From NCBI GenBank assembly GCA_947304355.1, contig CAMZAX010000002.1:1-64000 (forward strand): 64,000 bases of DNA, given 5' to 3'. The number at the start of each line of letters is the position of its first letter. Positions within the stretch are counted from its first letter, which is position 1. The position numbers were made by a program, and so were the translations under genes. This DNA is from an uncultured Selenomonadales bacterium (GTDB taxonomy: Bacteria; Bacillota; Negativicutes; Selenomonadales; Selenomonadaceae). The notes beneath the pieces were generated by a model that searched no databases, had not been told where the DNA came from, and worked only from the letters and a program-made list of their open reading frames with translations. This document shows, piece by piece, positions 14,102-63,627 of the stretch.

Positions 14102-14458
14102 ATGACACCTGAAGAGAACGGCACCGAACAAATCCCGAACGCTGCCGCCGCAAACGACTTCGACGAGGAAGAAAACAAACCCCTTGCCGAACGCAGCGAA
14201 GTCGACATCGCCTACAAACTTTTGAGCCGCGCGGGCAAGGAACATCCCATGCACTTCAAGGATTTGATTCGCGAAATCATTTCCATTCAAGGCAAAATCG
14301 TTCAAAACGAGGCGGCCGCCATTTCCGAAATCTACACGATGATTAACATGGACAGCCGCTTTCAGCATATCGGCGACGGGCTTTGGGGCTTGACCGATTG
14401 GTATCCGCCCGAAACAAAGCGTTCGCGTTCGACTACAACAAAGACACCCGTTAAATAG
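14102..14458 (+). CDS. rpoE: RNA polymerase delta subunit
   Basis: This 118-residue protein has an acidic N-terminal tail and a HARE-HTH domain (about residues 33-102: DIAYKLLSRAGKEHPMHFKD, then FQHIGDGLWGLTDW). In Firmicutes the delta subunit joins RNA polymerase and affects promoter selectivity and recycling. Here the acidic part is at the N-terminus, while in Bacillus it follows the HTH domain, so the domain order differs. Position immediately before pyrG matches the classical rpoE-pyrG arrangement. The stop codon merges with a heptad repeat element. Confidence 0.85.
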   Translation: MTPEENGTEQIPNAAAANDFDEEENKPLAERSEVDIAYKLLSRAGKEHPMHFKDLIREIISIQGKIVQNEAAAISEIYTMINMDSRFQHIGDGLWGLTDWYPPETKRSRSTTTKTPVK

Positions 14459-14534
14459 TTAGAAGGTAGGAGTTAGGAGATAGGAGTTAAAAGCGCGTAT
14501 ACAACTCCTAACTCCTACATCCTAACTCCTAACT
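14457..14534. repeat. Paired inverted heptad arrays (TAGGAGT / AACTCCT type)
   Basis: Left units (GTTAG, AAGGTAG, GAGTTAG, GAGATAG, GAGTT) are followed by the core AAAAGCGCGTATAC and right units AACTCCT, AACTCCT, ACATCCT, AACTCCT. The halves are inverted copies and can form a hairpin in the rpoE-pyrG transcript. The left half begins at the rpoE stop codon. The right half shares its variant-unit order with the copy at 59341. Confidence 0.9.
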
Positions 14535-14552
14535 GAACTTCGGAGGACAATC

Positions 14553-16172
14553 ATGGCTAAATATATTTTTGTGACCGGCGGAGTAGTTTCGTCGCTCGGC
14601 AAAGGAATCACGGCAGCATCGCTCGGCAGACTTTTAAAAAGTCGCGGCTTGAAAGTTACGATTCAAAAGTTCGACCCCTACATCAACATAGACCCCGGCA
14701 CAATGAGCCCGTATCAGCACGGCGAAGTTTTCGTGACCGACGACGGCGCGGAGACCGACCTAGACTTGGGACACTACGAACGATTCATCGACATCAATCT
14801 AAGCAAGCAATCAAACACCACCACGGGCAAAGTTTATTGGTCTGTTTTGTCCAAAGAGCGCAAGGGCGACTACCTCGGCTCGACGGTGCAAGTCATTCCG
14901 CACGTCACCAACGAGATTAAAGCTCGCGTCTATGCCGTGGCGGAGGCGGATAAAGCTGACGTCGTCATAACCGAAGTGGGCGGCACCGTCGGCGACATCG
15001 AAAGCCTTCCCTTCCTGGAGGCGATTCGTCAAGTCAAAAAGGAAGTCGGCAAGTGCGACGCCCTTTACATTCACGTGACGCTTTTGCCGTATATCGGCGC
15101 GGCGGGCGAACTCAAAACCAAACCCACTCAACACAGCGTCAAGGAACTGCGCGCAATCGGCATTCAGCCCGACATTTTGGTTTGCCGCACCGATTATCCG
15201 ATAACCCGCGAACTCAAGCGCAAGATAGCTCTGTTCTGCGACGTGGACGAAAACGCCGTTATCGAAAACCGCACGGCGTCGACGATTTACGAAGTGCCGC
15301 TGATTATGGAAAACGAAGGGCTCGACAAAATCGTCCTCAACAAGCTGAACTTGCCGCAAGCCCCGCCAAAGCTCGACGAGTGGCGGCGCATGGTTTACAA
15401 GATTCAGCACCCCGAACGCTCGGTCAAAATCGCGCTGGTCGGCAAATACGTCGAACTGCCCGACGCGTACATTTCGGTTGTTGAGGCTTTGCACCACGCG
15501 GGCGTCGAACACTCGACAAAGGTCAAAATTAATTTCGTCAACGCGGAGAAAATCGAATGCCCCGACGTTGACTTGGAAGAAACTTTCAGCGGCTGTCGCG
15601 GGATTTTGGTTCCCGGCGGCTTCGGAGATCGCGGCGTCGAAGGCAAGATTAAGGCGATAACTTTTGCCCGCGAAAATAAAATCCCGTTCCTGGGCTTGTG
15701 CCTCGGTATGCAGTGCGCGGCGATTGAATTCGCTCGCAACGTCTGCAACTTCGCCGACGCCAATTCGACGGAGTTCAATCCCGACACCGACAGCCCCGTT
15801 ATCGCGCTTATGGATTCTCAGCTCAACGTGACGGAAAAGGGAGGGACAATGCGACTCGGCGCGTATCCCTGCAAAGTCTTGCCCGACACGCACACGGCGG
15901 TAGCTTACGGCGTCGAACAAATCAGCGAACGTCACCGCCACCGCTTTGAATTCAATAACAAGTTCCGCGAAATCTTCGACGCGCACGGCATGATTATCGC
16001 GGGCGTGCTCCCCGACGACAGCTTGGTTGAAATTATCGAACTGCGCAAGGAAATTCATCCGTGGTTCGTGGGCTGTCAGTTCCACCCCGAATTGAAGTCG
16101 CGCCCGAATCGTCCGCACCCGCTCTTCCGCGAATTCGTCGCCGCCGCGCTCAAACTCAAGTATCAAAGCTGA
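14553..16172 (+). CDS. pyrG: CTP synthase
   Basis: This 539-residue enzyme converts UTP to CTP using ATP and glutamine. The N-terminal synthetase domain starts [16 protein letters not shown] and contains [20 protein letters not shown]. The C-terminal class I glutamine amidotransferase domain has the nucleophile elbow GLCLGMQ (near residue 382) and the FHPE motif near 514. Length and motifs are complete. The ATG is preceded by GGAGGA. A heptad element lies between it and rpoE. Confidence 0.98.
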
Positions 16173-16292
16173 AACGCAACGCGCATTAGAACGTCCCGAT
16201 AAACTCAAAGTCACCATGTGATGAGGAAATTTTTTCGTATGATGAGGCGTAATTTGCGTTAAGATTAAATTCCGCGTGATAATTTGCCGCGC

Positions 16293-16329
16293 AAAAAAAT
16301 CCCCGCCGTTTGACGGGGAAAATTTTTTT
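16293..16329. terminator. Bidirectional terminator between pyrG and nrfA
   Basis: TCCCCG, an 8-base loop and CGGGGA are flanked by seven A on the left and AAAATTTTTTT on the right. The convergent genes pyrG and nrfA end on either side, so it can serve both. Confidence 0.8.
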
Positions 16330-16342
16330 GTCTGATTGAAAT

Positions 16343-61422: not shown

Positions 61423-62031
61423 ATGGCAATCGACAGAACTCCCGCTTTGAAACGCTGCCGCGCACTCGGAATTGAACAGGCGGTTATCGGTCGTTCCCGC
61501 AAGGTCAGCGAAAAGAAACATCAGCAACAACAACGCATGGGGCGCAAAGTCAGCGAATACGGGCTCCAGCTCAAAGAGAAACAAAAAGCGAAATTCATTT
61601 ACGGCGTCCTTGAACGTCAATTCCGCAACTACTACGAGAAGGCTAAAAAAATGCCGGGCGTCACGGGCGAAAACCTTTTGATACTGCTTGAACGGCGCAT
61701 TGACAACGTCGTCTTCCGCATGGGCTTTGCCAACACCCGCCGCCAAGCACGCCAATTCGTGCGCCACGGTCACATCACCGTCAACGGCAAACGCGTCGAC
61801 ATCCCGTCGGCTCTCGTCAAAGTCGGCGACGTCGTTGAAGTCTGCGAAAAAAGTCGCGGCAAAGAAATTTTCAAAATGATTCAGGAAGTCAACAACGCCC
61901 TGAGCGCGCCGCCGTGGATTGATTCAAATCAGGCGAACCTCAAAGGCTCCGTCACGCGCTTCCCCACCCGCGAAGACATCAGCGACATTCCCGTCAATGA
62001 GCAGTCAATCATCGAGTTGTACTCCAGATAA
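61423..62031 (+). CDS. rpsD: 30S ribosomal protein S4
   Basis: This 202-residue protein has the S4 RNA-binding domain (LERRIDNVVFRMGFANTRRQ, QFVRHGHITVNGKRVDIPS). It nucleates 30S assembly. GGAGGT precedes the ATG. Confidence 0.98.
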   Translation: MAIDRTPALKRCRALGIEQAVIGRSRKVSEKKHQQQQRMGRKVSEYGLQLKEKQKAKFIYGVLERQFRNYYEKAKKMPGVTGENLLILLERRIDNVVFRMGFANTRRQARQFVRHGHITVNGKRVDIPSALVKVGDVVEVCEKSRGKEIFKMIQEVNNALSAPPWIDSNQANLKGSVTRFPTREDISDIPVNEQSIIELYSR

Positions 62032-62073
62032 TTAGAGATCCCGACAGAACTTTTCTGAAAGGAGCGTATCTCT

Positions 62074-63183
62074 TTGACTGACAACGAAAAGAACGACAAC
62101 CAAAAGCCGCCGAAGATTGAGATGGTCGAGATAGGCGACGACGGAAATTACGGCAAGTTTATCTGCGAACCGCTCGGTCGCGGCTACGGTATTACAATCG
62201 GCAACAGCTTGCGCCGTATGCTCCTGTCGAGTTTGGAAGGCGCGGCTGTCACGTCGATTAGGATTGACGGCGTTCTTCACGAGTTTTCGACGATTCCCGG
62301 AGTTCGCGAAGACGTTACCAATATCGTCCTAAACGTCAAGCAGGTTTGCCTTAAAATCGACGAGGAAAAGGATCAGCCGCAATTCTTCGCGCAGGTGGTG
62401 ACTACGCCGCCGCGCACTTACACGCTCCGCATTGACGTCGACGTGGAGGAAGAAATTAAAACCGGCTTCCACACCAAAGGCGAACGCCGCGAAGTCACTG
62501 CCGCCGATATTGAATGCGATCCCACTATCGAAATCCTCAACCCCGACCTGCATATCGCCTGGCTAAACGACACCGGTAAGCTTCGAATGGAAATGACGGC
62601 TCGCACGGGGCGCGGCTACGAACAGGCGGAGAAAAACAAAAACCCCGACGACATTATCGGCACAATCCCGATCGATTCGATTTACTCGCCGGTGCTTCGC
62701 GTCAATTACAATGTCGAAGACACCCGCGTCGGCAACGAAATGGACTTCGACAAATTGACGCTGGAAGTTTGGACGGACGGCACCCTCGGTCCCGAAGAGG
62801 CTGTGTCCAAAGCGGCGGCTATCCTTATCGCGCACATGAAACTTTTCCAGAACATGGACGGTATCGTCGCAATCGAGGAAGACATAAAAGACGACGAAGA
62901 GACCGACGAAAATGAGCCCGAAGACGACGGCATCATGACGATGGACAAAAATCTCGCCAAGCCGATTGAAGAACTCGAATTGTCTGTTCGTTCGACGAAT
63001 TGTCTTAAACGTGCGGGCATTCACACTGTCGGCGATCTCGTCGAAAAGACAGAAGAGGAAATGATGAAAGTCCGCAACCTCGGGCGCAAGTCGTTCGAAG
63101 AAATCAAGCAAGTAATGGCTACACTCGGCGTTTCGTTCAGACAGTCGCCGAATCCGCCCGGCGCGGTTTTGATGGACGATTGA
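62074..63183 (+). CDS. rpoA: RNA polymerase alpha subunit, long acidic linker
   Basis: This 369-residue protein has an N-terminal assembly domain ([40 protein letters not shown]) and a C-terminal domain that binds UP elements and activators ([21 protein letters not shown]). A highly acidic linker (about residues 268-292, rich in Asp and Glu) makes it longer than the usual 310-330. The TTG at 62074 follows AAAGGAG. Confidence 0.97.
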
Positions 63184-63207
63184 TTCCGGCAGAAAGGAGG
63201 ATATTTA

Positions 63208-63546
63208 ATGAGCTACAGAAAACTCGGCAGGAACAGCGGCGCACGCAAGGCTATGTTCAGGAGCCTGCTCAGCGCGTTTTTCCAATACGAGCGCATTGAG
63301 ACGACGGAGGCGCGTGCCAAGGAGCTTCGCAAATTCGCCGAAAAAGTCGTGACGCTTGCCAAACGCGGCGACCTCAGCGCACGCCGTCAAGCCATAAATC
63401 TCGTCGCGAACGTCGACGTTGTTCATAAAGTTTTTGAGGAAATCCCCGGCAAATACAGCGACCGCGCAGGCGGTTACACCAGAATCTTGAAACTCGCGCC
63501 GCGTCGCGGAGATGCTGCGCCCATGGTTTTGATTGAACTGGTTTGA
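63208..63546 (+). CDS. rplQ: 50S ribosomal protein L17
   Basis: This 112-residue protein has [20 protein letters not shown] and the [20 protein letters not shown] end. It closes the alpha operon. AAAGGAGG precedes the ATG. A heptad element follows its stop. Confidence 0.98.
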
Positions 63547-63549
63547 AGC

Positions 63550-63627
63550 AGTTGGGAGTTAGGATGTAGGAGTTAGGAGTTGGATAAATAATTTTAACTC
63601 CTAATTCCTAACTCCTAACTCCTAACT
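63550..63627. repeat. Paired inverted heptad arrays after rplQ
   Basis: The left half carries GGGAGTT, AGGATGT, AGGAGTT and AGGAGTT; after GGATAAATAATTTT the right half has AACTCCT, AATTCCT, AACTCCT, AACTCCT and AACT. The halves pair as a hairpin, and a run of six T follows, so it may also terminate transcription. Confidence 0.85.

Follow-up and report, generated by a model that had tools for sequence, protein, structure and literature searches.

A 64,000-nucleotide stretch of the genome of an uncultured Selenomonadales bacterium (contig CAMZAX010000002.1, positions 1 to 64,000; hereafter the window) carries dispersed tandem arrays of 7-bp units, and we consider it probable that these heptad arrays are the terminal arms of mobile elements of the intervening sequence (IVS) type, short gene-less forms included. 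The full form consists of about four to five G-rich heptads, a gene for an S23/intervening sequence protein (IVP) and usually a complementary C-rich arm, about 400 bp in all; the short form consists of an arm, a short core and a second arm (about 60-115 bp) and is dispersed, with an estimated few hundred tracts in the genome. Similar arms flank the IVP gene in many phyla, linking repeat families that have so far been described apart. The argument draws on the tracts themselves, empty orthologous sites, the association with IVP, the approximate ends of the copies, a sense bias, constraint on the protein and concerted change of the arms, each read from sequence comparison.

Heptad arrays flank IVP genes in many bacteria

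The full form in the window comprises three features:

58974..58998, plus strand: left heptad arm of the IVP element, overlapping the secY stop codon
58997..59350, plus strand: S23/IVP four-helix-bundle gene, between the two heptad arms
59341..59372, plus strand: right heptad arm of the IVP element, 5' of adk

An earlier sequence-only reading of this DNA had described 58974/59341 as a short-core palindrome, which is not so, the arms enclosing the IVP gene at 58997-59350. Two features of IVSs are present, namely complementary terminal arms (AGTTAGGAGGTAGGAG on the left and AACTCCTAACTCCTACATCC on the right) and an S23/IVP reading frame; the third, location in rRNA, is absent, the element lying between secY and adk. 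A GGAG in the left arm is positioned six bases 5' of the IVP start. The encoded protein matches PF05635 (23S rRNA-intervening sequence protein, E 9e-28) and TIGR02436 (four helix bundle protein, E 5e-32), and its solved relatives by sequence are 2gsc (Xcc0516 of Xanthomonas campestris) and 2rld (Bacteroides), each with five chains. A structure model of the window protein from single-sequence input was weak (predicted local distance difference test score, pLDDT, 65.8), as were the fold matches that it gave to 4dwl and 8ub7 (E 0.2-0.8), so the evidence for the fold comes mainly from 2gsc and 2rld by sequence. Of 60 genomes of the genus, 39 contain PF05635, and in the phylum a search at E 0.001 detected it in 57 of 299 (49 over the cut-off); no IVP match was found in phage records. 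The ratio of nonsynonymous to synonymous change (dN/dS) was 0-0.15 in the 14 usable IVP pairs of 17, with dS saturated in several; the pairs left out were L170/L171 (zero synonymous change) and L183/L184 and L182/L186 (frame misread). By this measure the protein is under strong constraint.

The IVP collection comprised 170 loci: 25 from a genus search, 20 further loci, the window copy, two operon copies, 30 from the phylum, 12 from plasmids (12 of 31 records) and 80 from named organisms. A single search pattern yielded at least 592 loci, of which the best 80 make up the named set; this set therefore leans toward one IVP subfamily. The PF05635 search of the genus listed 63 places; the genus group holds 48 loci, with two pieces of the operon copy counted as one. 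Rows left out were 5 of 30 genus loci (short contigs), L225 (a duplicate of L119) and seven loci with short flanks. Using a threshold of at least 15 of 21 matching columns within about 150 bp on each side, period-7 arrays were found on both sides of the gene in 94 of 162 testable loci and period-8 arrays in 14; each remaining period within 5-12 gave 0-2 loci, and of 1418 control windows inside these loci, 7 had such arrays at period 7 and none at period 8. These both-side counts are independent of strand. By group, period-7 arrays flanked both sides in 33/48 genus, 19/30 phylum, 10/12 plasmid and 32/72 named loci. Ribosomal-operon genes other than IVP in the same genus had arrays on both sides in 14 of 784 cases and on either side in 114, and all 14 fall among the 463 genes of genomes that contain IVP (IVP+).

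The two arms of a locus resemble each other more than arms of different loci. Own-arm pairs had a median match score of 19-24 versus 9-10 for swapped arms, and a score of at least 20 was reached by 75 of 143 own pairs versus 11 of 429 swapped pairs. The left arm had more G than C in 73 of 78 cases, a property that we considered and rejected as an orientation signal, because an inverted pair retains it on reverse complementation and the loci had not been oriented by gene strand.

Among the named hosts whose IVP genes have an array on each flank are Xanthomonas, Luteimonas, Rhodanobacter, Thiohalocapsa, Flavobacterium, Capnocytophaga, Sphingobacterium and Chloroploca, as well as metagenome bins labelled Acidobacteria, Planctomycetota, Verrucomicrobiia, Clostridia and Peregrinibacteria. 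The arms of the Xanthomonas vasicola IVP carry a GGGAATC-type unit. Cyanobacteria, the group in which heptad short tandemly repeated repetitive (STRR) sequences were first described, supplied 25 of the 31 IVP plasmid records. Period-8 arms in an otherwise identical architecture were observed at L216, L236, L242, L254, L110, L133 and L175. At L152 (1831-2219) the right arm extends to nearly 390 bp of heptads (CTCCTGT, CTCCTAG and CTCCTGA types) adjoining the IVP gene. A bin labelled Methanophagales archaeon (L221) has an IVP gene with an upstream heptad array, for which archaeal origin and contamination are both possible. Finally, IVP genes with long heptad arms lie between cas6 and cas4 on plasmids of Anabaena sp. 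90 (L169, 1129-1969; clustered regularly interspaced short palindromic repeats, CRISPR, annotated as type I-D) and Pseudanabaena galeata (L173, 1255-1957). Since heptad arms flank IVP there, the simpler reading is that IVP at this position is probably an insertion and not a CRISPR component.

Arrays co-occur with IVP across genomes

Operon loci spanning 9 kb or more held arrays in 14 of 19 IVP+ genomes (2.5 per 10 kb on average) versus 2 of 13 genomes without IVP (IVP-; 0.12 per 10 kb), with a Fisher p of 0.003 for draft genomes uncorrected for relatedness; a laxer threshold gave 16 of 19 versus 4 of 13 (p 0.0035). Two of the IVP+ operon loci themselves hold an IVP element. Among phylum stretches away from IVP, 4 of 20 from IVP+ genomes (306 kb) contained arrays, 7 in all, whereas the 20 from IVP- genomes (337 kb) contained none. 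Neither reverse transcriptases (RVT_1, in 19 of 60 genomes) nor Y1 transposases (in 7 of 60, 6 of them over the cut-off) follow the arrays. The ribosomal-operon locus L079 of genome G016 has 17 heptad tracts in 20 kb, a higher density than in the window.

Period-7 tracts in the window and host genome

Autocorrelation of the window at a threshold of at least 17 of 21 matching columns yielded 12 tracts at lag 7, none at the other lags from 4 to 13 and at 15 except one at lag 6, and 8 at lag 14 as an echo of lag 7; ten third-order Markov shuffles contained no tracts at lags 6, 7 or 8. The host genome is a 2.41-Mb draft, of which a 400-kb sample picked by contig number contained 51 period-7 tracts, about 13 per 100 kb or, by extrapolation, about 307 per genome. 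For window and sample together, period 7 accounted for 65 tracts, periods 5, 8, 10 and 11 for none, and periods 6, 9 and 12 for 3, 1 and 6, respectively. Both the window and the sample thus hold tandem units of exactly 7 bp beyond chance expectation. The most frequent units were AAGGGAC (26 of 76 arrays) and AACTCCT (17 of 76), and in all 11 elements with two adjacent arrays the left array was G-rich and the right array C-rich, with an ungapped arm match over 80% of the shorter arm in only 2 of the 11. Within the host genus the unit sequence varies by genome while the period remains 7 or, less often, 8. AACTCCTAACTCCTAACT with up to one mismatch was present in 12 of the 60 genomes searched (its own included), every one in the host genus, and in none of 23 genomes from other families of the class.

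The loci listed by the sequence-only reading do carry heptads, with 20551, 47681 and 60310 among the short or degenerate ones (20551 and 60310 fall outside the set of 12 lag-7 tracts). The elements other than the IVP element are as follows:

8003..8043: single heptad array of CCCTTTT/CCCTTGT units
10311..10392: paired element of GCATTAC type, adjoining a tRNA-Leu gene (10395-10479, minus strand)
14455..14535, plus strand: paired element, AGGAGTT, core AAAAGCGCGTATAC, AACTCCT, between a HARE-HTH gene and CTP synthase
20551..20588: short single array of GCATTAC type
24351..24418, plus strand: paired element with core AAAATCGCGTCATC
43599..43671: rpsL-rpsG spacer element with differing arms, AAGGGAC left and TAACTCC right
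47509..47586, minus strand: paired element 3' of tuf, core of the family seen at 14455 and 24351, in reverse orientation
47673..47700: short single array of GTTCCTG
55029..55105: rpsH-rplF spacer element, AGGGACA left and TAACTCC right
60312..60337: short degenerate CCCTTGT tract, limits set by eye
61336..61405: rpsK-rpsD spacer element, TCAGGTT left and CCCTTGT right
63550..63633: paired element 3' of rplQ

The proposed plan of a left array, a short core and an inverted right array describes the elements with matched arms; it fails at 43599, 55029 and 61336, where the units differ and pair poorly. In a hairpin fold test of eight short window elements, those with AACTCCT arms gave z scores of -5.0 (24351), -6.0 (14455), -7.4 (47509) and -12.0 (63550), and the mixed-unit elements gave +0.3 (43599), -3.0 (55029) and -2.9 (61336); the GCATTAC element at 10311 scored -2.5 although its arms match. 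The unlike arm units at 61334-61408 and 43599-43671 suggest that arms can be exchanged singly, since unlike units occur at one site there whereas the arms around many IVP genes match.

Evidence for copying to new sites and for movement as a unit

The same order of variant units recurs at distant sites: AGGAGGTAGGAGTTA with up to one mismatch has 65 occurrences in the genome (reversed control, 0), and the core GTTAAAAGCGCGTCATCAACTCC with up to three mismatches has 8, of which 3 are forward and 5 reverse. Orthologous sites, compared within the host genus, are often empty. Forty relatives were used for the ribosomal-operon spacers, a subset of which reaches each spacer. At rpsK-rpsD, 22 of 25 relatives are empty (15-20 bp), 2 have a heptad element and 1 has 37 bp with two heptads; at rpsH-rplF, 21 of 32 are empty (12-27 bp), 8 have heptad elements of other units and 3 have other sequence; at secY-adk, 19 of 27 are empty (4-35 bp), 4 have short heptad elements, 2 the IVP element and 2 other sequence. 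At one site the unit therefore varies among genomes, and left and right arms may also differ. The 10318 site is empty in 7 of 10 relatives having both flanks, and 2 of the 3 non-empty gaps hold other heptads; at 8004, four relatives with both flanks have three gaps of 35-36 bp without heptads and one of 502 bp; at 14457, ten relatives show one other heptad array, one 28-bp gap, four gaps with 89-121 bp of other sequence and four larger gaps. No relatives had both flanks at 20551 or 24351. Unit types are also non-random, 56 of 107 operon arrays sharing a 9-mer with their own genome's IVP arms versus 473 of 2140 comparisons with other genomes. The empty orthologous gaps and the non-random units support the proposal, made from the window alone, that the arrays were copied to new sites and did not arise by local slippage.

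The ends of the full form were approximated from IVP pairs at unrelated sites, defined as having no further alignment at E 1e-15 in the 1.5-2 kb flanks. In the genus pairs L313/L317, L314/L315, L315/L316 and L315/L317 (84.5-89.1% identity), identity stops 38-53 bp beyond either end of the match, as measured in the first member; L152/L155 (86.2%) has similar ends, and those of L155/L157 (79.9%) and the cyanobacterial plasmid pair L176/L177 (82.5%) are less even. Because these roughly 80-89%-identical copies share sequence only to about the outer arm ends, the arm-IVP-arm segment of about 400 bp appears to move as a unit. The arms of one locus also change in concert: at the orthologous loci L114/L119, L126/L133 (period 8) and L113/L116, with about 3 kb aligned, the units have changed yet still match within each locus.

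IVP elements mostly lie in the sense of surrounding transcripts

Strand was judged by an open-frame criterion for 166 IVP loci, duplicates and orthologues included. The upstream gene had the same sense as IVP in 107, the opposite in 10 and was unclear in 49; the corresponding numbers for the downstream gene were 108, 10 and 48. Both neighbors were in the IVP sense at 88 loci and both opposite at 3, with many neighbors unclear. Rfam placed five IVP loci (L156, L162, L167, L168 and L179) in large-subunit (LSU) rRNA, with arms of heptad type by eye, and one with heptad arms (L165, 1229-2003) within a gene for RNase P RNA, presumably in helix P12; the RF00010 match there is split over 775 bp, against a model length of 367 nt, and cyanobacterial STRRs are known from that helix. 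All six lie in the sense of the RNA. The loci for Rfam were hand-picked, some for an rRNA-like look, and the LSU rRNA counts were 5 of 20 in the first set and 0 of 20 in the second.

Weighing the alternatives

Several observations weigh against arms of IVS-type elements as the general explanation. At the threshold used, an array was present on one side only in 36 of 162 IVP loci and on neither side in 18, and the loci are not independent, some being mutually orthologous. Operon arrays occurred in 2 of 13 IVP- genomes and were missing from 5 of 19 IVP+ genomes, 51 of 107 operon arrays lacked a 9-mer in common with their own genome's IVP arms, and in the phylum test even the IVP+ genomes contained few arrays. 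A simple hairpin model does not account for the several short elements whose arms are poorly complementary, and inspection by eye proved no target duplication. We know of no catalytic domain in IVP. In addition, the account of the Coxiella protein S23p in PMC4990558 judges it expendable and probably unexpressed.

We judge it unlikely that the arrays are ordinary miniature inverted-repeat transposable elements (MITEs) or repetitive extragenic palindromic (REP) elements moved by a conventional transposase, with IVP as a frequent passenger. Such elements would be short, with inverted repeats and a conserved core in both orientations, as seen here, and a TAA, judged by eye, stands on each side at rpsK-rpsD in the three occupied genomes. 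However, MITEs and REPs have fixed terminal inverted repeats, whereas here the termini vary in sequence and only the period is fixed; arms of this kind accompany the IVP gene across many phyla; and Y1, in few genomes overall, was not found in the array-rich genomes G000 (the window genome), G013, G016 and G022. Mobilization by Y1, the only transposase family searched, was rejected on its absence from the window genome and its failure to follow the arrays.

Simple-sequence slippage, in which heptads grow locally by 7-step polymerase slips and no mobile element is involved, seems very unlikely. Its appeal is that copy number varies and that a survey by Mrazek (2007; summarized in PMC4679880) found heptamers to be the most abundant class in the majority of genomes. 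Slippage alone is contradicted by the unit order and core common to distant sites and by IVP copies that share arms up to about the arm ends at unrelated sites; empty orthologous sites and both-side flanking of 33 of 48 genus IVP loci versus 14 of 784 other operon genes also speak against it. Slippage may nevertheless set copy number within an arm.

We find it highly improbable that the arrays are regulatory sites, that is tandem S1, Csp or CsrA motifs near start codons as proposed for the TAACTGA repeats of Beggiatoaceae. Arrays do lie between the stop codon and Shine-Dalgarno sequence of essential genes, and their GGAG units resemble Shine-Dalgarno sequences, yet at one gene both presence and unit type change between close relatives, and the operon loci of many relatives have no array, on which grounds regulation was rejected as the sole cause; elements may have a regulatory side effect. 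Finally, a telomere-like process in which a reverse transcriptase adds heptads to broken ends, to each one independently before they are joined, is scarcely credible and was rejected: G-rich arms running 5' to 3' inward, different units on the arms of one site, a weakly Avd-like IVP family and RVT_1 matches in the array-bearing genomes G000, G013, G022, G023 and G025 would fit it, but RVT_1 was not found in array-bearing G015, G016, G024, G063, G073 and G077, has 14 matches in G017 and 6 in G033, whose operon loci have no array, and the common cores favor copying.

Proposed mechanism and implications

If the arrays are the arms of IVS-type elements, the short gene-less elements would descend from, or be moved by, the full IVP form. 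Both arms would be carried in one transcript, because most IVP genes with assignable neighbors have the same sense as co-directional genes on both sides and some are embedded in 23S rRNA or RNase P RNA, and the arms would pair as a stem with the IVP reading frame in its loop. RNase III excision is described for 23S IVSs (PMC4990558), and the stem would probably be cut by the same enzyme. The IVP ring might bind to the stem, or to its single strands, in a register of 7 or 8 nt and could support copying of the element; template switching or conversion would keep the two arms alike, and elements would be kept in sense inside transcription units.

More tentatively, and in our estimate somewhat improbably, heptanucleotide repeats in general (STRR, TAACTGA, GGGAATC), 23S IVSs and RNase P RNA insertions might form one transposase-less mobile class, whose five-fold ring protein would read a register of 7 or 8 nt instead of a sequence and spread the hairpin by way of transcripts. 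If true, register reading would account for the preference for length 7 among bacterial repeats and for the recurrence of the ring protein in unrelated operons, including CRISPR operons. Bacterial heptanucleotide repeats have been noted for decades with no agreed origin and no agreed explanation of their 7-base length. A tie to IVP would give the repeats a source and the protein a testable ligand, extend IVS elements from rRNA to ordinary operons and offer a simpler view of IVP beside CRISPR adaptation genes, namely as insertions with heptad arms.

Comparison with known systems

STRRs are the heptanucleotide repeats of cyanobacteria, and the sequence-only reading named them. Such repeats are nevertheless known well beyond that group, as TAACTGA in Beggiatoaceae, for which translational regulation is proposed (PMC4679880), GGGAATC in Xanthomonas and GGGGA(C/T)T in Nostoc (PMC4692102) and GGGACCG in Geobacter (PMC2700814); the sequence-only reading also overlooked the S23/IVP gene that such arms flank across bacteria. 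Like the arrays described here, they are tandem and largely intergenic, and those of Xanthomonas also form inverted pairs, with a unit of the type carried by the X. vasicola IVP arms. Unlike here, known repeats have been treated as simple repeats, quadruplexes or binding sites; the account in PMC4692102 finds inverted heptad pairs, in general without a mobile-element association, and its main text does not name XCC0516. Searches of open-licence papers turned up none that links dispersed heptad repeats to IVP genes. Heptamers beside S23p have been noted once, in the Coxiella IVS.

The elements resemble MITEs and REPs or their paired forms (REPINs) in being short, palindromic and dispersed with a conserved core, and differ in that the period and not the terminal sequence is fixed and in that Y1, the sole transposase family tested, does not follow the arrays. 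A different parallel is Avd of diversity-generating retroelements, which forms a five-fold ring. The IVP protein of L114 is distantly similar to the Avd model NF033474 (E 7e-8, 32.8 bits, below the cut-off of 80), the weak fold matches to 4dwl and 8ub7 point the same way, and Xcc0516 is described as a homopentamer that forms a toroid (PMC4990558), likewise a five-fold ring; unlike Avd, the window IVP protein had no match to that model, and the arrays do not follow reverse transcriptases.

The closest likeness is to the 23S IVSs of Coxiella, Leptospira and others, in which an S23/IVP gene lies in sense within a transcript, complementary arms form a stem and the whole spans about 400 bp. According to PMC4990558, the structure of the S23/IVP protein is solved and its function is not known, older proposals of IVS mobility exist, and the Coxiella IVS has GACAGAT heptamers upstream of S23p with an RNase III site at the first repeat. 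Unlike 23S IVSs, the elements described here lie mostly in protein operons, with one in RNase P RNA, use heptad or octad arrays as arms in most loci and have gene-less short forms dispersed throughout the genome.

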